Positions 27,349 through 39,270 of a DNA stretch of 41,431 bases are shown piece after piece. This DNA is from Deltaproteobacteria bacterium (GTDB taxonomy: Bacteria > Desulfobacterota > Desulfomonilia > Desulfomonilales > Desulfomonilaceae), in the NCBI GenBank assembly GCA_016875095.1, contig VGSG01000031.1:1-41431 (forward strand), read 5' to 3'. The number at the start of each line of letters is the position of its first letter. The first letter of the stretch is position 1. A model generated the notes under the pieces. That model did no database searches and was not told where the DNA came from. It saw only the letters and a program-made list of their open reading frames with translations. The translations under genes and the position numbers were made by a program.

Positions 27349-27401
27349 GTCGGAATGCCCGCCCGCGTTTACACAAATCCATAAGCTTCGGACGCAGTCG
27401 C

Positions 27402-27434
27402 CGGGGAGACCCTTTTTGCGAAGGGTCCTCCCCG
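27402..27434 (+). terminator. Hairpin after acyl-CoA dehydrogenase (GGGGAGGCCC family)
   Basis: CGGGGAG-ACCCTT (27402-27414) pairs with AAGGGT-CCTCCCCG (27421-27434) around a TTTGCG loop, about 13 base pairs with one bulge. There is no strong U-tract, so it may work as an mRNA 3'-end stabiliser or a weak terminator. It is one of four related hairpins here. Confidence 0.65.
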
Positions 27435-27464
27435 TCGCTCACCATTAACTTGTTTGATGGCGCA

Positions 27465-27520
27465 GTTCCTATGAAAGGGCTCGGCATGAAGCGCCCTTGG
27501 TCGAGTTTACGTATGGGGAG
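27465..27520 (+). repeat. 56-bp dispersed intergenic repeat, copy B
   Basis: Ungapped match to 22301-22356. In both copies the same frame would encode VPMKxLGxKRPWSxLxMG, but the differences are not mainly synonymous, so a noncoding repeat is the simpler reading. Confidence 0.7.
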
Positions 27521-27521
27521 G

Positions 27522-27551
27522 TTTGGAGGGGAAATGAGTCTCCCCTCCAAA
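27522..27551. terminator. Strong perfect hairpin between convergent units
   Basis: TTTGGAGGGGA (27522-27532) and TCCCCTCCAAA (27541-27551) pair over 11 bp with an 8-nt loop. It lies between the plus-strand acyl-CoA cluster and the minus-strand crotonase gene, so it could act as a bidirectional terminator; flanking T/A bases at the arms are short. Confidence 0.55.
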
Positions 27552-27682
27552 TTATTGCGCAACGATGCGCTCTCGCTACCCATCTCCGAGGCGAAGCCCC
27601 GAAGCGCCGGCCAAAGGCGAGCGCTTTCATGACTCGTTGTAGCTAATTGACCATCGGAGTCGGTATGAGAGCCAAAATGGTA

Positions 27683-28453
27683 TCAGAATGCGCCGTGCTT
27701 ACCTTCTCCGGAGGCGAAGCGTTGCGCGCCGGAGAGAGTTTCTCCGCTGGTGATGACTTTCACGCCTCGTTCAAACTCGTTCTTTATGGCCTCATCCCAT
27801 GACAGGTCCCATTGTTCGTATGCGCTCAATCGGTCGCTGCGCATACACAATTGGGGAAATGACGCAATTTGAGCCGCGAGTGCTTGGGCTTCGGCTTTCG
27901 CCCGGCCATCAGCCACGACGCGATTTACCAGACCGAATTCTAGCGCTTCCTGTGCTCCAACAGGCCGCCCAGTCAGGATTAGATCGAGGGCGCGGCTCAT
28001 GCCAATAAGACGCGGCAGGCGGATCGTGCCTCCATCAATGAGCGGCACACCAAAACGACGACAGAAAATTCCCAGGGTCGCGGTCTCTTCCATGACCCTT
28101 AGGTCGCACCAGAGGGCAAGCTCCAGGCCGCCTGCGACCGCGTACCCTGATATGGCCGCGATCACCGGCTTGCTCAGCCTCAATCGGCTGGGACCCATGG
28201 GCGCGTCTCCTTGAGGGTCCAGGCGGTTGTGGCGGGCTTCCTGAGGATTTGAGAAGGCCTTGAGGTCCGCGCCTGCGCAAAAGTGACCGCCGGCCCCGCA
28301 GAAGACAGCCACGTACGCGTCATCGTCTGCGTCGAACTGGCGAAAAGCCTGCGCAATTTCCTGCGCGGTGGGCCCGTCTACCGCATTTCTCAATTCGGGT
28401 CGATCAAGGATCACCGTGGTGACACGATCGTTTTTCTCTACACGTACCGGCAT
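27683..28453 (-). CDS. Crotonase-family (enoyl-CoA hydratase/isomerase) protein
   Basis: ATG 28453 follows AGGAGG by six bases. The 256-residue protein has the crotonase fold marks: GHFCAGADLKAF (CoA-binding and oxyanion region), VIAAISGYAVAGGLELALWCD and GVPLIDGGTIRLPRLIGMSR. Glu111 matches the first catalytic Glu of enoyl-CoA hydratase (GGxELA), but the position of the second Glu, 20 residues on, is Cys131 in IFCRRFG. Standard hydration chemistry is therefore doubtful; isomerase, hydrolase or other crotonase activity is possible. It faces the acyl-CoA cluster on the opposite strand and may serve the same pathway. Confidence 0.82.
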   Translation of the reverse strand: MPVRVEKNDRVTTVILDRPELRNAVDGPTAQEIAQAFRQFDADDDAYVAVFCGAGGHFCAGADLKAFSNPQEARHNRLDPQGDAPMGPSRLRLSKPVIAAISGYAVAGGLELALWCDLRVMEETATLGIFCRRFGVPLIDGGTIRLPRLIGMSRALDLILTGRPVGAQEALEFGLVNRVVADGRAKAEAQALAAQIASFPQLCMRSDRLSAYEQWDLSWDEAIKNEFERGVKVITSGETLSGAQRFASGEGKHGAF

Positions 28454-28618
28454 TGCAGCCTCCTGTCCGGCCGAACGCTTTTCTGGTAATGGACACCTTC
28501 CTTCGATTGCTTGTGACGATATTTGTATGAATTCGCGCAAAATGGGGCGGGAGACAATAAAAAGGAGTGAGCAAGATGTCGTGGCCCCGCTTGCTCCGCG
28601 GGCGCCGCATCGCGTGCG

Positions 28619-28654
28619 AAAAAAGACCGCGAATCCCGCGCTCCGCGGGACGGT
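28619..28654 (-). terminator. Rho-independent terminator of the hox operon
   Basis: On the minus strand ACCG-TCCCGCG pairs with CGCGGGA-(TTCG)-CGGT across a GAG loop, followed at once by CTTTTTT. It lies 65 bp after the hoxH stop. A strong GC stem plus U-run is the classical form. Confidence 0.7.
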
Positions 28655-28719
28655 TCCCCCGGATCGGATCAGGAGTCACCACATCCTACATTGGCTCACA
28701 GCGCGTGAGACCTCTTTCG

Positions 28720-30138
28720 TCACGCTATTTCGTGCAGGACAGTCCCGTCACGCGCCACGAGCTCGATCCGCAGCGGCAATCGTCCCAGTGCGTGGGTCGA
28801 ACAGCTCAGGCACGGATCAAAGGCTCTCACAACGGCTTCCACTCGGTTGAGCGCGCCCTCGGATATGGTGTCGCCATTGATAAAGCGCTTGGCGACCTGG
28901 AGAACCCCACGGCTCATGGCTAAATTATTGTTGCCGGTGGCTACGATGAAGTTGGCCCACCGGATCAAGCCCTTATCGTCGACTCGGTAGTGATGGAAAA
29001 GCGTGCCTCTGGGCGCCTCCACTACGCCGACCCCCTCGTTGTAGTTCGGCTGCGCGAAGACCCGCACGCGGGCGTTGAGAATGTAAGGTTCATTCAACAG
29101 GGATTCGATGGTTTCAATCGCGTACAGGATTTCGATGAGCCGCGCATAATGGTTGTGGAACGAACTGAGCACCGGCCCGCGATCAAGCTCTCGAAACTCG
29201 GCCCACTCCTGGTCGGCCAGAGGAGTGCCGCAGCCACCGCACACATTCAAGCGCGCGGCCGGTCCTACCCGGTAAATGCCTTCCGGATAACCCAGAGGTT
29301 TGTAAAAGGGGGATTTGAGATACGACCAGGGCTCGGGCGCCTCGCCGATATATAATTGATAATGGGCAGGATCCACGTTTTCCACGACCACGTTTCCTTT
29401 GTAGTCGATCAAGCGAAGCGTGCCGTCGATGTGCTCCAGATTGCCTTCCTTGTTTACAAGAGCCATAAACAAGGTGGGGAAATTCGCAAAGGTGCGTATT
29501 TCTTCCCGGTGGTTTTCCAGGGAAGCCTTGAACCAAGTCAGGGTTTTTCTCGTGATCTCCAGGGCTTGCGGAAGAAGCGCCAGAATGAATTTTCTGGTCT
29601 CCTCGGTAAGTGGAGAACTCACGCCCCCGGGAACCACCCATGTTGGATGAATTCGCTTGCCTGCCACGGCTTGGATAATCTCTTGCCCTATCTTCCGGAG
29701 GTTAATCCCATCCATTGCCAGGTCCGGATGAGCTTCCAGCAGCCCCAGGATGTTGCGTTTTGCCGGATCCGAGTCCAAGCCCAGCACCAGATCAGGCGCA
29801 GAGAGGTGGAAGAAACTCAACGCGTGGGACTGAATCAACTGACCGCAGTTGAGCAAGCGTCTCAGCTTGAGCGCAGTGTCGGGAATGCGAACCCCGAGGA
29901 TGCTGTCGCATGCCGTGGCTGAAGCGATGGAATGAATGATGGGACAAATCCCGCATATTCGCTGGGTAAGGGACGGCATTTCATAAAACGGTCGTCCCTC
30001 GCAGAATTTCTCGAAACCACGGAACTGGGTCACGTGAAAGCGCGCATCGCTCACGCTGCCGTCGTCATCGACGACGATGGTGATTTTGCCGTGGCCTTCG
30101 ATCCGAGTTATGGGCTCGATGACAATGTTCTTCGCCAT
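28720..30138 (-). CDS. hoxH: NiFe hydrogenase large subunit HoxH
   Basis: The 472-residue catalytic subunit carries the Ni-Fe ligands in L1 [11 protein letters not shown] (Cys62, Cys65) and L2 [13 protein letters not shown] (Cys443, Cys446), and the N-terminal ITRIEGHGK. The C-terminal 23 residues after His449 are the expected propeptide removed by a maturation protease, whose gene is not in the window. The NAD-linked cytoplasmic type (group 3d) follows from the neighbours hoxEFU rather than from this subunit alone. It is the last gene of the operon, 16 bp after hoxY and before a terminator. Confidence 0.92.
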
Positions 30139-30154
30139 GAGGGTGACTCCGCGA

Positions 30155-30688
30155 TTAGGCTCCGAAACGGGTTTTTTGTGTGAGATCGGGCATCCGTCCT
30201 TCCAGAAGCTCGGTGAGCACGTAAAGGATCGCCTCCGACGGCGGCGGACAGCCCGGCAGGAACACTTCCACGTCGATCAGTTCATGAACAGGACGAGCCT
30301 GCGGTAACAGGCGAGGAATACCCAACGTGGGAATGCCCTCGTTAATGGTTGCATTCTCCAGGTATCCTCGCGCGAGCACGTCATCAACTTTGAACTGGTT
30401 GCGCATTCCCGGGACATTGGCGGTTACCGCGCAGTCCCCGAAAGAGACAACGATCTTCGAGCGTTCTCTAATATGACGGATCTGCTCTTCAGCTTCGTCG
30501 CTGCTCACCGCTCCCTCAACGAGGGTCACATGCACATCTCGGGGGAACTCCTTGACGTCCGCGATGGGGCTGTACACCAGGTCAATTTGAGCGGCCACAT
30601 CAGCGAATCCTTCGTCCAGGTCGAGCAGGGACATGTGGCATCCCGAGCAGCCGTCAAGCCAAACTGTGGCTAACCGCACCTTATTCAT
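30155..30688 (-). CDS. hoxY: NiFe hydrogenase small subunit HoxY
   Basis: The 177-residue protein is short, as in HoxY, and has no Tat signal, so the enzyme is cytoplasmic. Cysteines for the single proximal [4Fe-4S] cluster are seen in WLDGCSGC (Cys14, Cys17), SFGDCAV and FLPGCPPPSEAI. It passes electrons from HoxH to the HoxU/HoxF diaphorase. Gaps to hoxU and hoxH are 16 bp each. Confidence 0.92.
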   Translation of the reverse strand: MNKVRLATVWLDGCSGCHMSLLDLDEGFADVAAQIDLVYSPIADVKEFPRDVHVTLVEGAVSSDEAEEQIRHIRERSKIVVSFGDCAVTANVPGMRNQFKVDDVLARGYLENATINEGIPTLGIPRLLPQARPVHELIDVEVFLPGCPPPSEAILYVLTELLEGRMPDLTQKTRFGA

Positions 30689-30704
30689 GTGAGCCTCTCG
30701 TTTC

Positions 30705-31469
30705 TCATTTGCGCCCTTCTCCGCGCATCATCTGGAGGTAGGGCAGAAACTGTCTGCGTTTGGTCATTTCCGCGACTGATTTTCCCTTTTCAGAGAGAGC
30801 TCCCGTGGGGCAGACTTGCACGCATTTTCCGCAGCCTGTGCAGGTTTCCGAAGACCCCCAGGGCTGATTCAGATCGGTGATGACTCGGCTGGTGATCCCG
30901 CGGCCCATGATGTCCCAAGTGTGCGCGCCTTCGATCTCGTCGCAGACCCGCACGCATCTCATGCAGAGCACGCATCGATTGTGGTCCACGGAAAACCGGG
31001 GATGGCTCGCGTCCACAAGCTGTTTGGGATAAAGATAATCGTAACGGACATGGGTCATGCCCAGTTCCGTAGCAAGCGCCTGAAGGTCGCAATGGCCGTT
31101 GGAGACGCATACGGAGCAGACGTGGTTTCGCTCCGAGAAGATAAGTTCCAAAATTTTCCGACGATATTCAATCACGCGATCCGAGTTGGTGACCACTTCC
31201 ATGTCTTGCCGCGCCAGAGTCACGCAGGAAGGCAGCACTCTGGGCGCGCCTTTTACGTCCACAATGCACAACCGGCAAGCTCCCCGAAGCGAGAGCCCCT
31301 CCATGTGGCACAAAGTCGGAATATAGATGCCGTTTTGCCGGGCAACTGACAGCACTGTCTCGTCTTCGCGCGCCGTGAGCAGGCGATTGTCAATCGTCAT
31401 CGTGAAGATGCGAGCGGGGTTGGCATCATTTCCTAGTTTCTTTCCGGTAAGCGACGTCGGTTCTTTCAT
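30705..31469 (-). CDS. hoxU: Diaphorase iron-sulfur subunit HoxU
   Basis: The 254-residue protein resembles the N-terminal part of NuoG: a [2Fe-2S] ferredoxin domain ([20 protein letters not shown]), the [15 protein letters not shown]-like cluster segment (HVCSVC), and two [4Fe-4S] ferredoxin motifs ([13 protein letters not shown] and [16 protein letters not shown]). It links the hydrogenase module HoxYH to HoxF. Its ATG overlaps the hoxF stop by four bases. Confidence 0.92.
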
Positions 31470-33118
31470 ACCGCCTCCCTGGCTTCATGGATTTTGCACG
31501 CTTCGGCGGGACAGCGCTTCTCTTCGATGTGAGCCACGTACTCGTCCCGGAAATAGCGGAGCGTGCTCATGATCGGGTTCGGAGCAGTCTGACCCAGGCC
31601 GCACAAGCTCGTATTTTTGAGCAGGTCGGAAAGATCTTCGAGCATATCGAGGTCGGACAGCTTGCCTTCGCCCTTCGTGATTCGATTCAGCAGGTGGTAT
31701 ATCTGCGATGTTCCCACGCGGCAGGGCACACATTTGCCGCAGGACTCGGACATGCAGAATTCCATGAAGAAATGAGCCACATCCACCATGCAGGAGGTGT
31801 CGTCCATTACTATCAGACCTCCCGAACCCATGATGGAACCCACCGAAGCCAAGGACTCATAGTCCACAGCCATGTCGAGAAATTGCTCCGGAATGCAGCC
31901 TCCTGATGGACCTCCGGTCTGAACGGCTTTGAACGCTCGGTCCCCGGGGATACCTCCCCCTATCTGAAAGACGATCTCTCTGAGGGTGGTTCCCATCGGC
32001 ACTTCGATCAAGCCGGTGTTGTTTACCCTGCCGGCCAGGGCAAAGACCTTGGTCCCCTTGCTCTTCTCAGTCCCGATTGTGGCGAACCACTTCCCACCCT
32101 TACGGATGATGGGAGGGATATTGGCAAAGGTCTCCACGTTGTTGATGAGGGTGGGCTGACCCCAGAGCCCAAATTCCGCAGGGAATGGAGGTCTCGGGCG
32201 GGGGCGCCCCCCCCTGCCTTCGATAGAGGCGATCAGCGCGGTCTCTTCTCCACAGACAAACGCGCCGGCCCCTAATCGCACATTGATGTCAAAACTGAAC
32301 TGAGAGTTGAAAACGTTGTTGCCCAGCACTCCGAGATGCCGGGCCTGCGAGATCGCGGTGCGTACGCGCTGGACTGCGAGCGGATACTCAGCCCGAACAT
32401 AAATAAATCCTGTGTTCGCGCCCACCGCGTACGCGGCCACGGCCATGCCTTCGATGACCCGGTGCGGATCGCTCTCCAGAATACTCCGATCCATGAATGC
32501 GCCTGGATCGCCCTCGTCGGCATTGCACACGACAAACTTGTTCCCGTTTGAGGCCTTGGCGACCGCCGTCCATTTCACCCCGGTCGGGAAACCGGCGCCG
32601 CCTCGACCGCGTAACCCGCTGGCCAGCACCTGCTCGATTACTTCAGAAGGACGCATCATGCGCAACGCGTTGTAAAGGGCCTTATAACCGTCTTCAGCGA
32701 TGTAATCCTCGATACGTTCGGGGTCGATCCTGCCGCTGTTCTCAAGCACGATCTTGGGCTGCTGCTCAAAGAACGGCCTTGAAGACGCACAATCAAGGCG
32801 AGGAATGGGCGCGCCGCCGAGTGATTCCAAAATTTCCGAAACGTCGGGCGCCCCAACCCCTCGATAATAGGTCCCGTCGGGCTGTATGGAGATCAGCGGG
32901 CCGGCCGCGCACAGGCCAAGACATCCGACACCCTTGACACTGCACCAGTTCTCCCATCCGCGGCGACTGACCTCTTTTTCAAAAGCTTCTTTCAGCACGC
33001 CGCTTTGGCAGGAGAGGCACCCTGCGGCAACGCAGACGTTTATCTGATAGGTGAAGCTTTCTCGTTTGTCTTTCTCAATTCTGGCAATGCCTTCCAGATC
33101 TTCAATGCTGAGTGTCAT
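31466..33118 (-). CDS. hoxF: Diaphorase NAD(P)H/FMN subunit HoxF
   Basis: ATG 33118 overlaps the hoxE stop by four bases; upstream in-frame starts lie inside hoxE. The 550-residue protein has a thioredoxin-like [2Fe-2S] N-terminus ([24 protein letters not shown]), a NuoF core with the FMN/NADH-binding [14 protein letters not shown] and [32 protein letters not shown], and the [4Fe-4S] motif [13 protein letters not shown]. It reduces NAD(P)+ with electrons from H2 or the reverse. Formate-dehydrogenase-linked NuoF homologues look alike, but hoxYH follow directly. Confidence 0.92.
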
Positions 33119-33681
33119 GGTTCGTCCACCTCTCCGCGCAGGGGAACTCGCTCGCTGGTCTCTTCGTTCCGCCATACTTCCATGCGATCCAGCACAGCAG
33201 TGGGAGTCATCTTTCCGCAGACCTGGCCGTCAAGGACCACAGCAGGCGCAAGACCGCAGGAGCCAAGACATCGTGCGGTGAGCAGTGACACCTTCCCGTC
33301 CGGAGTCGTCTCACCCGGAGCAATACCTACTTTTTTTGCGATCGAGCCCAGGATGCCGGATGCGCCGGAGATGTAACAGGCGGTCCCTTTGCACACCACA
33401 CACGTGTGCTCGCCCGGCGGCTGGAGCGTGAAGTAACTATAGAATGTGGCCACTCCGTACACGACGCTCAGGGGCACTCTAAGCGAATTTGCCACATACT
33501 TCAGCGCGTCCGGATCCAAAAAGCCGAAGTATTCCTGCACCGAGTGAAGAGTTTCGATGAGCGCGTGAGGTTGATTGCCGTGCAGGCGCATGGTCCTATT
33601 GACCAAGCGCCAGCGCTTATCTTCTGTGGGCATGGAGGCCCCCTCTTTCGAGGGTGAAGATCTTTCTTGCAGGCTTTCCAT
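33115..33681 (-). CDS. hoxE: Diaphorase 24-kDa-like subunit HoxE
   Basis: The 188-residue NuoE-like protein carries a thioredoxin-fold [2Fe-2S] site: CVVCKGTACYISGA and ARCLGSCGLAPAVV. The helical N-terminal part contains LIETLHSVQEYFGFLDPDAL. ATG 33681 follows GAGGA; an internal ATG at 33633 is an alternative start. It is the first hox gene and lies 84 bp after the ankyrin gene. Confidence 0.9.
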   Translation of the reverse strand: MESLQERSSPSKEGASMPTEDKRWRLVNRTMRLHGNQPHALIETLHSVQEYFGFLDPDALKYVANSLRVPLSVVYGVATFYSYFTLQPPGEHTCVVCKGTACYISGASGILGSIAKKVGIAPGETTPDGKVSLLTARCLGSCGLAPAVVLDGQVCGKMTPTAVLDRMEVWRNEETSERVPLRGEVDEP

Positions 33682-33765
33682 GTTCTGATCCTCATCCGAG
33701 AGAATAGTGGAATTTGTCTGCTGTCGGCGCTGCTCAAGCCCGCATAGGAAGGCTTGCGCAGCCTC

Positions 33766-34341
33766 TTACTTCTTCTGAAATTGCTTAAGTAGCTCTACCA
33801 CGTCATTGTGGCGTCTGGACACGGCCCATACCATAGCGGTCCAGCCGTTCTTGTCCGCGGCATCGATGGACGCGCCCGCCTCCAGGAGTTCTTTCAGCAC
33901 CGCGGTGTGGCCCCGGTACGCCGCCATGATCAGAGCGGTCGCGCCGTACTCGTCCGCGACTTCAAGATCGACCGGAGTCTTGAGCAGAGCCCGCACCACA
34001 TCGAGATGACCTGCCCGCGCCGCTCGCATGAGACTGGTCAATCCATGATCGTCCATCGCGTTGTAATCTGCCCCGTTATCGATCAGATAGTCAACAACTT
34101 CGGCGAAACCCCGACGACAAGCCTTCATGAGCGCCGTGGCGCCGTACTGGTCTCTCACATTGGGGTCAGCTCCGCTGTCCAACAACATCCTTACCATATC
34201 AGGGAATCCCATCGCTGCGGCCCACATCAGAGGTGTCCACCCCATGTCATCCTTGCTCTCCACACCAGCGCCCACGGTCAGCAGACCTCTCAGCTCAGCG
34301 AGATTTCCCTCTTTTGCCGCTTCCAACAGCTTCTTATCCAT
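33766..34341 (-). CDS. Ankyrin-repeat protein leading the hox operon
   Basis: The 191-residue protein is almost wholly ankyrin repeats, about five units of roughly 33 residues (GWTPLMWAAAMGFPDMVRML, GATALMKACRRGFAEVVDYL, GLTSLMRAARAGHLDVVRAL, GATALIMAAYRGHTAVLKEL, GWTAMVWAVSRRHNDVVELL). There is no signal peptide, so it is cytoplasmic. ATG 34341 follows GGAGGAG. It is the first gene after the sigma-54 promoter and 84 bp before hoxE with no terminator between, so it is probably co-transcribed with the hydrogenase. A scaffold, assembly or regulatory role for the hydrogenase is inference. Confidence 0.88.
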   Translation of the reverse strand: MDKKLLEAAKEGNLAELRGLLTVGAGVESKDDMGWTPLMWAAAMGFPDMVRMLLDSGADPNVRDQYGATALMKACRRGFAEVVDYLIDNGADYNAMDDHGLTSLMRAARAGHLDVVRALLKTPVDLEVADEYGATALIMAAYRGHTAVLKELLEAGASIDAADKNGWTAMVWAVSRRHNDVVELLKQFQKK

Positions 34342-34448
34342 GGGTTTCGCTCCTCCTCGTCCGTCAGTCCGTGCCCTGTGCGCTGCTCCAGCACAAACAA
34401 ATTCCAGTGATGGCTGCGGCAGCGCCGATCCGACCTATCCCCTTGGGG

Positions 34449-34465
34449 AGCAATTGGTGTGCCAA
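34449..34465 (-). promoter_or_regulatory. Sigma-54 promoter of the ankyrin-hox operon
   Basis: The minus strand reads TTGGCACACCAATTGCT. It matches the -24/-12 consensus TGGCAC-N5-TTGC exactly, with ten bases between GG and GC. The predicted transcription start near 34438 leaves a leader of about 97 bases to the ankyrin gene. Sigma-54 control of hydrogenase genes is well known in other bacteria. Confidence 0.82.
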
Positions 34466-34550
34466 GTGGCCGTGAAGGCCCACAAGGAACGAAATCGGGC
34501 AATGGGACTAGATCGGCCGTGCTCCCAGCGCCACGTCATGGCAAAGGGAT

Positions 34551-34580
34551 GCCTGTCAAAAATTTTGACAGCCTGTCAAA
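34551..34580. promoter_or_regulatory. Probable enhancer (UAS) for a sigma-54 activator
   Basis: A 19-bp palindrome CTGTCAAAAATTTTGACAG (34553-34571) is perfect around one central base. A further half-site follows, since GCCTGTCAAA is repeated at 34551-34560 and 34571-34580, 20 bp apart. Its centre is about 125 bp upstream of the predicted start, the usual distance for NtrC-type activators. The activator itself is not in the window. Confidence 0.65.
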
Positions 34581-34970
34581 GCTCGCCTGGAAATGAACCC
34601 GCGATGGTCGAAGGGTGGCGGTCGGCCCCGTCATTGGGACCTATACAGGCCGATCCGTATCCGGTGGGGGTCGGCTCAGCCCGGAAGAATGTCCCGAACA
34701 CGTTCAAGTCGGTTGCAACAACATAATCGAGCCTGGTTGCGAGGACCACGGTATTTCTCAAATAGCCGTCCAAAGACAAATTGTACGCGTTCAAGCCTGC
34801 TCGTAAGTAAATCACCCCGGACACGGAACCGTGAATTCGCATAGGCATAGTCAACGCTGCGGACCGGATTCTCGTGACCTGTCTTCGGGTAAGATGCTAT
34901 AAGCAGGGAGTCGGCAGCGATATTTGTGCTCCGAGAGGCGGGAGTCCTTGCGGTGGGAAAGGATTGGGAG

Positions 34971-35369
34971 ATGTTTGCTCAGGGCGAATCAACAACGGGA
35001 CTAGCGAGTTACGTGGGGGCCGCGATTGTCAGTTTCGTCGTCCTGACACTCCTCAGCGCGGCCGAGGCGCGTGCTCAAGCCGAAACGGTGAAAGCGACCT
35101 TGAATAAGGTCTTTTCCATCAGCCTGGCTGAGAACCCTACTACAGGCTACCGATGGGAGGCTGACATAGACAAGAAGTTTCTCTCATTGAAAGGGAGAAA
35201 CTTTGCGCGAAGCGCCAAGAGCGAAGGACTGGTAGGCGCAGGGGGAACTGTGACTTTCTTTTTCCTTCCTCTGAAATCCGGGCAGACCAACATCGTGCTT
35301 CGCTACAAAAGATCCTGGGAGAAGGAGCACACGGAAGAGAAGACCTACCGGGTCATCATCTCACGATAG
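34971..35369 (+). CDS. Chagasin-like (I42) protease inhibitor, exported
   Basis: I chose ATG 34971 (MFAQGESTTGLASY) because GGGAG lies just upstream and it gives a signal peptide (AAIVSFVVLTLLSAAEARAQ). The mature 90 residues have the three loop motifs of the chagasin/amoebiapepsin inhibitor family: NPTTGYRWE, GAGGTVTFFF and KRSWE near the end of LRYKRSWEKE. Family members block papain-like cysteine proteases. It lies alone between the hox operon and the copper genes on the opposite strand. The target protease is unknown. Confidence 0.78.
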   Translation: MFAQGESTTGLASYVGAAIVSFVVLTLLSAAEARAQAETVKATLNKVFSISLAENPTTGYRWEADIDKKFLSLKGRNFARSAKSEGLVGAGGTVTFFFLPLKSGQTNIVLRYKRSWEKEHTEEKTYRVIISR

Positions 35370-35440
35370 GTAGGCAATCGGTTGCGCGGGCTTGCAGGTA
35401 GGCGGGGGGTCTAACTCGATTAGTCTTCAATACTCTGTCG

Positions 35441-37909
35441 CTATCGCAGACTGCGGGCCAGGAGTCTCTTGAGGCGCAAGGAGTTGCCCACCACGGAGAC
35501 GGAGCTCATGGCCATCGCGGCCGCCGCGAAAACGGGGTTGAGAAGAACCCCGAAAAAGGGATAGAGAGCGCCCGCAGCAATGGGTATCCCCAGCGTATTG
35601 TAAAAGAACGCCCAAAAGAGGTTCTGTTTGATCACTTTCATGGTTTCAAAGGAGAGCTTGATCGCGGCCGGCACGAGCTGGAGATCGTTCTTGATCAGCG
35701 TGATGTCGGCGGCCTCGATGGCCACGTCTGTCCCCGCGCCGATGGCGATTCCCACATCGGCCGCGGTGAGCGCGGGCGCGTCGTTAATGCCGTCGCCGAC
35801 CATGGCGACTACTTCGCCTTTCTCTTGGAGCTTTCGGATCTGATCGGCCTTGTCTCCGGGCAGGACTTCCGAGATCACGGTGTCTATGTCAATCTCATCG
35901 GCTATCGCGGAAGCCGTCTTTTCATTATCTCCGGTGATCATGACCACATGGAGTCCCATCTCCTTGAGGGACCGCACCGTGGTGTGCGCTGTTGCTCTGG
36001 GCACGTCCTGGAGGCCGATCACGCCGATGACTCGGTGGTCCCAGGCTACGCACACAGAGGTCTTCCCTGACCGCTCGAGCATTTTCAGGCTGGGCTCCAG
36101 CCCATTCATGGAGGCTCCTTCCTCCCGCATGAGCCGCTGGCTACCGAGCAGGACCGGCTTGCCCTCGATCGCACCCTTGACGCCCAGCCCTGATGACGCC
36201 TGGAAATCTTCTACAGGGAGATGCGAAAGGCCTTGAGCACGCGCGTGGGCCACGATGGCCTGTGCCAGCGGGTGTTCGGATACCGCTTCGATGGATGCGG
36301 CAATGTGGAGCGCCTCGTCCGGACTCGAGTCCCGGGCTGCCAGCACGTCGGTCACCCGTGGCTCTCCCTTGGTAAGGGTCCCGGTTTTGTCAAAGACGAC
36401 GGTCGTCAGCTTGTACGCCGTCTCCAGACTTTCGCCGCTTTTGATGAGGATGCCCTTTTCAGCTCCCACGCCGGTCCCTACCATGACCGCGGTGGGCGTG
36501 GCAAGTCCCATTGCGCAAGGACACGCGATAATGAGCACGGAAACGAAATTGAGCAGCGCACGGCTGAAAACAGAGTCCGGCGCAAGGAAATACCAAACCG
36601 CGAAGGTGATCACGGCAATGACGACCACCACCGGAACAAAGATAGAGGCCACCTTGTCCACCACGTGCTGAATCGGGGCCTTGGAGCCCTGAGCCTCTTC
36701 CACGAGGCGGATGATCTGCGCCAGCGCCGTCTCAGCCCCCACCTTTGTTGCTTTGAAGGTGAATGCGCCGCTCTTGTTAATCGTGCCGCCGAAGACCTCC
36801 GCGCCGGAAGCCTTCTCCACGGGGACGCTCTCACCGGTAAGCATGGATTCATCCACTGCGGAAGCTCCTGAATCCACCACCCCATCCGTGGGTATCTTTT
36901 CTCCCGGCCGTACGCGGATGAGGTCTCCTTTCGCAAGCATTTCAACAGGAACGTCCTTTTCGCGGCCTTCCCGCACCACCCGCGCGGTCCTTGGCCTGAG
37001 TTCCATCAACCGTTTTATGGCCGCTGAGGTCCGCCCCTTGGCTCGGGCCTCCAGATATCGCCCCAAGAGGATGAGGGTCACGATCATGGCCGCGCCTTCG
37101 AAATATATGTGCGGCGTCGCGCCCGTCGTCTCAAAAAAGCTCGGAAACAAGACAACCGCGCTTGAATAGAGGTAGGCCGAAAGCGCGCCCAGAGCGACCA
37201 GGGTGTTCATATCGCTGGTCCTCTGTCGCGCTGCCTTGATGGCGCCGAGAAAGAACCGAGCGCCTACCCAGAAGACCACCGGAGTGGTGAGTATCATGAG
37301 GCCCGGTAGCAGCCAGTGCTGCGGAACTGCATGCACAAAGGGGAAAAGATGGGGCATGGAACCGATCATGACGATCACGCTGAGCACAGCGCCGACGACC
37401 AGCTTAAACCTAATGTCATTCAGCTCCTGCGCGCGGGCTTCCTCTAACGGGTCCGCAACACCCTCGCGAACCTGGCCCAGGAAGTCGTACCCGCTGTCGT
37501 CAAGCGCTTTCTTGACCGCGGGGAGAATTGCCACCCCCGGCCTGTAGCTCACCGTGGCACGCGAGGAAGCCAGATTCACCGACGCGTCCTGCACTCCGTC
37601 GATTTTCTTGAGCGCGTGTTCGACACGGCGCACACATGACGCGCAGCTCATACCACCCACCGAGATGACGGCCTTCTCGACTCCGCGCTCTGCTCCACCC
37701 AGCGGACTTGCCTGGTACCCGATCTCTTCTACTCGCCTGTAGAGCGTGTCCGGAGTCACCATCTCGGGGTTGTATTCGACCGTGGCTTTTTCACTCGCAA
37801 GGTTGACTGACGCGCTCATGACTCCTTCCAGGTCGGCCAAACCTTTTTCCACGCGGCGCACGCACGACGCGCAGCTCATCCCCTGAATATGGAAGATGTC
37901 CTTAGCCAA
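35441..37909 (-). CDS. copA: Copper-exporting P1B-type ATPase CopA
   Basis: The start is uncertain: TTG 37909 overlaps the copZ stop and I use it; TTG 37930 is the longer choice. The protein of about 822 residues has two N-terminal metal-binding domains, each with GMSCASC (Cys13/16 and Cys89/92), eight membrane helices with [12 protein letters not shown] as the transmembrane metal site, the phosphorylation motif [15 protein letters not shown] in the actuator domain, [10 protein letters not shown] with the nucleotide-binding HP, and [10 protein letters not shown]. It exports Cu(I) from the cytoplasm using ATP. It is the last gene of a four-gene operon and directly follows the copper chaperone. 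Confidence 0.93.
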
Positions 37910-38099
37910 CTTTGTAGCCTGCTTCCTCAATGGCCCGCCGGATTTTGTCCATCTCTACGGGGCTCTCTTCTCGGAAGGAAGCCTCACCCGACTCGAGGTC
38001 GACGCGCACTCCCTTCACTCCTTCGACTCGGCTCAATGCCTTTTCTACGGCCATTACGCAGTGCCGGCATGTCATGCCTTCAACCCTTACCGTGGGCAT
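37902..38099 (-). CDS. copZ: CopZ-like copper chaperone (HMA domain)
   Basis: The 65-residue single HMA domain [20 protein letters not shown] has the metal-binding CxxC (Cys11, Cys14) in GMTCRHC. ATG 38099 follows GGAGAA. It would hand Cu(I) to CopA, encoded right after it with an eight-base overlap. Note RHC in place of the ASC of the CopA domains. Confidence 0.9.
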
Positions 38100-38409: not shown

Positions 38410-39270
38410 TTAGCCCTTTCGTTGGCGCTCTGACGCAAGAGTTTCCTCGCGAAGGCGGCCCAGGGCAGCCAGGTGGCCCTTTTCTTCATCAGCTATCTTG
38501 AAGAGCATCTGTTTGCTCTTTTCGTCCGAGACCTTGTCTGAGAAACGTAGGTAGAGATCGAGCGCCTGGGTCTCCAGCATCATGGAAAGATCGAGCAGAT
38601 CTTCGCGCTTCTTAAGAAAAGGCTCGTATTTCCTTGTGAACTCATGGATCTCGAATCCGCCTTCCATCATACGGACGCAGGCCTGGGATTCCAGGTCCGC
38701 GGTGTCGGTCGCGGAGGAGGTGAGTGAGCGGTACAAGTCCCGGAGGTATTCCTTATGCTTCTCTTCCACCGAGGCCAACTTGAGCAGGAGGCCGGCGAGT
38801 TGAGAATCCTCGCTCTTCTCGGCAATCGAACGGTAGAACTCGGCGAGCACGCTTTCCATACCGAATGAGACCCTGAATATGCCTTCCGGGGTTTCCTCTT
38901 GGGGGATCAAATCAAGGTCCAGATCCTGCGGTCCTTCCGCTGTTTGCCCAAGCCAGGCTTTGATTCCACCTTTCAGGTTGTATACGTGTTTGAACCCCCG
39001 TCCCGCCAACAACTGCGCGGCCACCCGACTTCGGCCTCCTACAGCGCAATAGACGAGAGTAGGTTTGCTCTTGTCCAGTTGATTCAAAGAATCACTCAAC
39101 TGAGGCAACGGCGCGAGCTTGGCTCCCGGGATGTGCGATTCTTCATATTCAGAAGGCTGTCGGACATCCAGGAGCGTATACGTTCCTTCTTCATGAGACG
39201 CGACGTAGTCCTTCGCCTGTTCGGGGTCCAACGATTCTACCGGCGTGAACAGCTTGATGAGATCAACCAT
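38410..39270 (-). CDS. Rhodanese domain fused to a ferritin-like (rubrerythrin-type) domain
   Basis: Residues 1-110 form a rhodanese domain (YTLLDVRQPSEYEESHIPGA) with the active Cys in YCAVGGRSR. Residues 130-280 form a ferritin-like four-helix bundle with repeated Glu/His iron ligands: GMESVLAEFYRSIAEKSED, ASVEEKHKEYLRDLY, MLETQALDLYLRFSD and IADEEKGHLAALGRL (E-x6-Y and ExxH patterns). No rubredoxin domain is present. It could couple sulfane-sulfur transfer with peroxide or iron handling in the cytoplasm. It heads the copper operon; this fusion is known in other anaerobes. Confidence 0.85.
   Translation of the reverse strand: MVDLIKLFTPVESLDPEQAKDYVASHEEGTYTLLDVRQPSEYEESHIPGAKLAPLPQLSDSLNQLDKSKPTLVYCAVGGRSRVAAQLLAGRGFKHVYNLKGGIKAWLGQTAEGPQDLDLDLIPQEETPEGIFRVSFGMESVLAEFYRSIAEKSEDSQLAGLLLKLASVEEKHKEYLRDLYRSLTSSATDTADLESQACVRMMEGGFEIHEFTRKYEPFLKKREDLLDLSMMLETQALDLYLRFSDKVSDEKSKQMLFKIADEEKGHLAALGRLREETLASERQRKG

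Follow-up and report, generated by a model that had tools for sequence, protein, structure and literature searches.

Sigma-54 control of a Hox-type hydrogenase has been described in C. necator, where the promoter of the soluble hydrogenase (SH) is served by sigma-54 together with HoxA, which is named as the main regulator of both the MBH and SH hydrogenase operons (available portions of PMC4377017). Sigma-54 control of NiFe hydrogenases in Proteobacteria has also been reported (available text of PMC12316311). In the sigma-54 regulome of D. vulgaris (Kazakov 2015; accessible sections of PMC4641369), which comprises many activators, TGT and ACA half-sites lie 9, 11 or 12 bp apart and form three motif groups, the largest share of promoters lies within 100 nt of an activator site, and the DVU2956 site contains three conserved half-sites.

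We analysed an ank-hoxEFUYH operon contained in a 41,431-nucleotide stretch of a deltaproteobacterial genome (contig C31 of genome G000; the whole stretch is called ‘the window’ below). Like the C. necator SH operon, it is a (putatively) NAD-linked Hox operon under sigma-54 and an NtrC-family response regulator (here predicted); since sigma-54 and HoxA drive the former (PMC4377017, in part), this kind of control is not new. The original prediction had called the arrangement unfamiliar; sigma-54 control of an NAD-reducing Hox enzyme as such has the C. necator precedent. Unlike HoxA, as portrayed in the same available text, the candidate regulator shares a gene string with Tmc/Hmc-like genes, and many of the genes that have its predicted site in front of them are unrelated to hydrogenase. 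That site, the three-half-site element described below (the ‘triad’), includes TGT-N11-ACA, as do D. vulgaris groups, and its architecture has a precedent in those groups and in the one three-half-site element (accessible sections of PMC4641369); the four cases detailed there, unlike ours, include no hydrogenase, ATP sulfurylase or ankyrin regulon. None of TGTAAA, TTTACA, TGTCA and TGACA is printed in the main text of that source, whose motif logos and supplements lay outside the comparison and may hold an equivalent motif. The LurR/NrfR site of D. vulgaris differs from the triad (PMC6456213, in its available part), and the accessible portions of PMC3333781, PMC3897727, PMC11887813 and PMC12316311 contain nothing on it. 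Text searches, which are blind to motif logos and supplements, found no published account of the motif or regulon, whether directed at these or at hydrogenase, Desulfomonile or ankyrin links. The mechanism thus appears ordinary in kind, while the regulon behind it is apparently undescribed and widely conserved.

A predicted sigma-54 promoter and upstream element precede ank-hoxEFUYH

The operon encodes a bidirectional hydrogenase, as judged from HoxE and HoxU equivalogs with F, Y and H in the same operon (Table 1). Both equivalog cut-offs are passed and the order E-F-U-Y-H is that of the cyanobacterial type, from which the operon differs in its sigma-54/triad control and leading ankyrin gene. 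The gaps in the series ank-hoxE-F-U-Y-H are 84, −61, −4, 16 and 16 bp. The hairpin past hoxH is noteworthy by position only, because the region has 11 terminator-like sites against a mean of 7.9 in shuffled sequences.

Table 1. Coordinates of the operon, its predicted control elements and the candidate regulator
Feature	Position (strand)	Basis or remark
Ankyrin-repeat protein gene, 191 aa, first in operon	33766..34341 (−)	ATG at 34341; GAGGAGGAG just upstream of ATG
hoxE	33115..33681 (−)	Passes NCBIfam HoxE cut-off
hoxF	31466..33175 (−)	Pfam/NCBIfam; solved-structure match
hoxU	30705..31469 (−)	Passes NCBIfam HoxU cut-off
hoxY	30155..30688 (−)	Oxidored_q6 and place in operon
hoxH	28720..30138 (−)	Pfam; solved-structure match
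Terminator-like hairpin and T run	28627..28648 (−)	Directly past hoxH
Predicted transcription start	34438 (−)	Position arithmetic, 12 nt past the −12 C
Sigma-54 −24/−12 promoter TTGGCACACCAATTGCT	34449..34465 (−; reads 34465 to 34449)	GG-N10-GC spacing; TGGCAC/TTGC context
Predicted upstream activator element, three half-sites (triad), TTTGACAG-G-CTGTCAAA-ATT-TTTGACAG	34553..34580 (−)
27-bp asymmetric triad TTGACAGGCTGTCAAAATTTTTGACAG	34579-34553 (−)	Consensus TTTACA-N3-TGTAAA-N6-TGACAG; contains the originally predicted 19-bp palindrome
Half-sites 1 and 2, 15-bp inverted repeat TTGACA-N3-TGTCAA	34565..34579 (−)	Consensus in relatives TTTACA-N3-TGTAAA
Half-site 3, TGACAG	34553..34558 (−)	Promoter-proximal; repeats half-site 1 in the same orientation at a shift of 20 bp
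19-bp palindrome	34553-34571	Perfect; extra half-site stretches element to 34580
NtrC-type response regulator	G000:C5:79256-80692	Receiver; sigma-54 AAA+ with GAFTGA; Fis-type HTH
Triad and promoter of the regulator's own gene string	C5:71434-71460; promoter C5:71564	Head of eight-gene string containing the regulator

An exact minus-strand sigma-54 promoter had been claimed ahead of the ankyrin gene, and it is there; nowhere else in the window is TTGGCAC-N5-TTGC matched without a mismatch. The longer pattern TTGGCAC-N5-TTGCW has eight exact sites in the 4.7-Mb genome, versus none for the reversed pattern, and the genome encodes RpoN (PF04552, E = 8.9e-62). The position of the −12 element gives the predicted transcription start, near 34438. 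The second claim, of a perfect 19-bp palindrome with an extra half-site upstream of the promoter, also held: in a search of the window allowing up to three mismatches, one palindrome was found, the perfect one, where 0.13 were expected from shuffling.

A second genomic copy of the palindrome, as sought before sigma-54 promoters, did not turn up. The exact sequence occurs at one place in the genome, with 19 further places all at three mismatches (nine for the reversed control), and we rejected the exact palindrome as the conserved unit, since it is unique in the genome. What recurs instead is the asymmetric 27-bp triad.

The triad is conserved at orthologous hox operons

Sixteen hoxE upstream regions were compared: that of the window, those of 13 further family genomes, L065, and 647 bp of L159 (L160 was left out). 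A sigma-54 promoter scoring at least 15 within 1300 bp is present in five: the window, L145 (G010), L146 (G003), L153 (G005) and L158 (G012). In four of these, three half-sites with identical internal spacing lie 69–99 bp before the promoter (87 bp in the window), while the G005 promoter has no triad. When each of the four was scored with a matrix built from the other three, the triads reached 23.0–27.0 bits, versus at most 12.3 for the next best site. Promoter, triad, conservation and spacing are all present in the DNA itself.

A fifth hox triad (33.3 bits, with a promoter) is found in G007, further upstream, before three genes that precede hoxE and encode PhoU-like, USP (Pfam) and CBS-like (by eye) proteins. 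The hox 5′ side was thus found to carry a triad in five (window, G003, G007, G010, G012) of the 14 family genomes examined there (G000, G002–G005, G007, G008, G010–G012, G014–G017; G006 ends inside hoxF). The other nine have none of at least 28 bits on the examined side, G008 having a weak one and eight none at all. The G008 triad (L152 2921-2947, 26.6 bits) lies so close ahead of a gene judged by eye to be USP-like that a sigma-54 promoter would not fit between the two; none was seen, and the site has possibly decayed.

The gene preceding hoxE varies among genomes (ankyrin, CBS-like, USP-like and others, by eye). Triad and promoter immediately precede hoxE in G003 and G012, whereas in G010 a CBS-like gene (by eye) comes between them and hoxE; hox itself is thus a recurrent target.

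Triads recur beside sigma-54 promoters in the family and phylum

At up to two mismatches, TTKACANNSTGTMARAAWNYNTGACAG matched at 52 sites, spread over 12 of the 18 family genomes, and the backwards pattern at none. At up to one mismatch, 17 of 297 phylum genomes were positive, with 25 sites (our genome and 16 outside the family); the reversed pattern matched in G150 only. A matrix was built from 49 of the 52 family sites (two duplicates merged, one G003 site omitted). Its core is partly circular, because all its sites were picked by the pattern, whereas the pyrimidine directly before the motif was absent from the search pattern and is hence an independent signal; the flanks carry almost no information. 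With this matrix the window's hox triad scores 34.4 bits, and our genome contains five triads of 33.8–36.8 bits, on C31 (hox), C5, C13 (two) and C19. The promoters found for the C13 pair lie 269 bp off, on the other side, and about 330 bp away.

We then scored promoters (cut-off 13) at 32 of the 52 family sites and 19 of the 23 outside-family sites, using the same sigma-54 matrix of approximate base frequencies as for the hoxE regions (the counts of exact matches given above are independent of it). A promoter starts 50–110 bp downstream of the triad at 26 of 32 family loci and 18 of 19 outside loci, versus 2 of 32 and 0 of 19 on the triad's other side. Among random windows 5 of 2000 had a promoter, but these came from activator loci and are mostly coding DNA, so the other-side counts are the better control. 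The six family exceptions are L165, L166, L172, L178, L188 and L195. At L165, the regulator's own operon, a good promoter lies on the other side, 103 bp from the triad and 7.7 kb before the regulator gene; L166 and L172 have no promoter at the usual place, L178 and L195 have good ones about 210 bp from the triad, and that of L188 is weak (10.8). Taken with the hox comparison, the dozens of copies before other sigma-54 promoters bear out the predicted pairing of a sigma-54 promoter with an activator site, which we regard as strongly supported before ank-hoxEFUYH.

Two G005 loci (L235 8910-8948 and L247 3190-3228) carry overlapping triads in opposite orientations that have the inverted repeat in common. 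A TGACA-type half-site flanks the repeat at either end, giving a bidirectional form of the triad with four half-sites. The L247 pair lies 3′ of hoxH.

A candidate two-component regulator co-occurs and co-localises with triads

A dedicated regulator within the window was rejected: no sigma-54 activator domain is present among 20 selected window ORFs (Pfam), and a genome search with PF00158 found none on contig C31. The genome-wide search for an NtrC-type regulator that had been proposed yielded a candidate on another contig, C5, with many predicted non-hydrogenase targets. Its domains are those of an NtrC-family response regulator (Table 1), and for all 25 models listed of the 120 matched it falls below the NCBIfam cut-offs of the named equivalogs (NtrC, AtoC, ZraR, NtrX and others), the best being ntrC at 498.5 against a cut-off of 558.6. 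It is the last gene of an eight-gene string that encodes, in order, a TmcC/HmcE-like membrane protein and a TmcB/HmcF/DsrK-like Fe-S protein (both under NCBIfam cut-offs), a receiver protein (by eye), a PAS kinase, a USP-like protein (just under the Pfam cut-off), a 93-aa protein, a histidine kinase and the regulator.

Orthologues occur in 15 of 18 family genomes at 61–67% identity, with paralogues at no more than 49% among the matches listed. Outside the family, at a threshold of at least 60% identity, we found an orthologue in all 16 triad-positive genomes versus 10 of 44 triad-negative ones, hand-chosen from 280 (Fisher p = 3.6e-8). Among the ten, G307, G148 and G110 do carry a triad of at least 28.9 bits near the regulator when scored with the matrix. 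The two other activators included in this phyletic test, with identity cut-offs set by eye (52% and 50%), behaved differently: L007 shows no correlation with triads (5 of 16 versus 15 of 44), and L005 a weaker one than the regulator (14 of 16 versus 15 of 44, p = 3e-4), so that descent accounts for part of the association. Co-location is stronger evidence than this co-occurrence. Within the family, a triad of at least 26 bits lies within 1.5 kb at 5 of 15 orthologue loci, and at none of the 34 loci that hold other activators (p = 0.0016); outside it, one of at least 28 bits does so at 9 of 26 orthologue loci (16 of them from genomes selected for triad presence) versus 0 of 4 loci of 50–53% homologues. 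In addition, 41 orthologues have the recognition region GNRS.AA..LG.SRPTL..KI.KY, every letter being kept in 80% of them or more, which the 31 other activators aligned (those of the 34 with a usable frame) do not share.

The match is incomplete at several places. G011, G013, G014 and G016 have the regulator and no triad at up to two mismatches, eight of the 15 family orthologue neighbourhoods (several on short contigs) contain no triad, and no orthologue was detected in G009 (82% complete), which has triads. Among the stretches examined in relatives, the regulator lies near hox in G007 only, the other activator-like matches close to hox, such as those in L162 and L153, being of other types. 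About 3.6 kb past the regulator gene, an ORF at L196 18280-18777 resembles a NiFe-hydrogenase maturation protease (by eye).

With 20 strong activator matches in the genome, a different sigma-54 activator might bind an otherwise real triad, or several might share it, much as LurR and NrfR of D. vulgaris have common sites (PMC6456213, available part); the correlation of L005 and the triads of G009 are compatible with this. We consider it unlikely, however, since over family and outside loci together a triad lies within 1.5 kb of 14 of 41 orthologues of the candidate and of none of the 34 other activators, and in G073 and G287 the triad begins 26 and 5 bp, respectively, past the candidate's reading frame. 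The triad binder is therefore likely to be one response-regulator activator with its kinase, to judge from co-localisation and co-occurrence.

Predicted targets and the leading ankyrin gene

Besides hox, the predicted triad-associated targets include Tmc/Hmc-like genes, ATP sulfurylase (L202 by Pfam; L170, L171 and L179 by eye), TauE transporters, often divergent from PPDK_N-like proteins (L198 and L199 by Pfam, others by eye), kinases and receiver proteins (judged by eye, apart from one receiver matched in Pfam) and ankyrin genes. The last are found beside triads in G007, G005 and the window; the G007 protein is 63% identical to the window's over 191 residues, and its gene is preceded by a separate triad (30.5 bits) with a promoter of the form TTGGCAC-N5-TTGCT. 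Ankyrin genes being among the regulon's predicted members would explain why one leads the window operon, and the simplest reading is that two members, ank and hox, were fused into one operon in this lineage.

Promoter and triad could instead serve the ankyrin gene, with hox expressed mainly from an internal promoter and read-through incidental. The G007 homologue and a G005 ankyrin gene do have triad and promoter away from hox, and a gap of 84 bp separates ank from hoxE. Against this stand the triads and promoters that precede hoxE in G003, G012 and G010; a search of 27400-35600, limited to the sigma-70-like type, that gave a single site on the plus strand (31012-31039); and a terminator-like site in the ank-hoxE gap (33750-33764) that is listed for the plus strand only. 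We regard this alternative as improbable and favour a common promoter for ank and hox.

A PPDK_N/PEP-utilizer protein of about 890 aa, with a start like FKFKYACFKDLLASN, is encoded beside triads (L198 1861-4530). Similar proteins were noted by eye at L199, L256-L261, L269 and L270, often divergent from TauE or USP-like genes.

Proposed mechanism

That a fortuitous palindrome merely happens to lie close to a fortuitous promoter is a negligible prospect: the exact 19-bp palindrome has no second genomic copy and simple arithmetic predicts dozens of inverted repeats with 8-bp arms per genome, but chance is rejected by the fixed spacing conserved at orthologous hox operons and by the one-sided promoter counts (26/32 and 18/19 beside triads versus 2 and 0).

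We think it quite probable that ank-hoxEFUYH is driven by sigma-54 and the C5 two-component regulator acting on the triad, within a regulon. The region would then be the control region of a single operon, sigma-54 RNA polymerase being held at the promoter until an activator arrives. The kinase encoded just before the regulator would phosphorylate it, and the phosphorylated protein would bind the triad, with one dimer on the 15-bp inverted repeat and an extra subunit on TGACAG, which lies 20 bp, or roughly two turns of the helix, away from half-site 1. Bound regulator would loop to the polymerase and open the promoter through ATP hydrolysis. We infer binding, activation, the dimer arrangement and co-transcription from sequence; the co-occurrence of regulator and triad is directly observed.

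The same regulator would also drive its own operon, with the Tmc/Hmc-like complex, and ankyrin genes; the regulon probably takes in PPDK-like proteins and TauE transporters as well, and would extend in relatives to sensor kinases and ATP sulfurylase. These genes are probably switched on together, in sulfate-reducer-like bacteria, by one uncharacterised sensor-regulator pair. More tentatively, and at slightly less than even odds, the Desulfobacterota may possess throughout the phylum a two-component sigma-54 system that regulates its own genes and uses the asymmetric 27-bp triad as its enhancer. Such a system would switch electron flow globally: it would link hydrogenase to Tmc/Hmc-like complexes, sulfate activation and TauE transport, and modules specific to single lineages, such as ankyrin, CBS and USP genes, would have been drawn in ahead of hydrogenase operons.

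An observation on one promoter would in this way extend to a regulon with a single regulator, a 27-bp site and dozens of predicted promoters. These are spread over a phylum that comprises sulfate reducers and their relatives, whose genomes are rich in activators without a known role. Such a regulon predicts one common signal for hydrogen metabolism, sulfate activation and membrane electron-transfer complexes, and supplies a reason for the ankyrin gene at the head of the operon.

Type of hydrogenase and neighbouring genes

The best-scoring solved relative of HoxH, HoxF and HoxU is the NiFe hydrogenase of PDB entry 7t2r, which we take to be the electron-bifurcating enzyme. Electron-bifurcating NiFe hydrogenases are defined by a C-terminal extension of subunit B and a long subunit A. 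Judged by the alignment ends, neither feature was found in the window proteins: HoxF stops 8 residues past the aligned part, where subunit B of 7t2r continues for 60, and HoxU has 254 aa against 692 aa in its counterpart. The window hydrogenase (28720-33175) is nearer to 7t2r than to the NAD-reducing 5xf9, yet has a short HoxF end and a short HoxU, and may be either a plain NAD-linked or an intermediate form.

Upstream of the ankyrin gene, on the same strand and separated from it by a 1.1-kb stretch, lies a gene for a P-type metal ATPase with two HMA domains (35441-37930). An ORF at 38410-39270 joins a rhodanese domain to a rubrerythrin/ferritin-like domain, and an IS1595-type transposase is encoded at the contig end (40519-41424).
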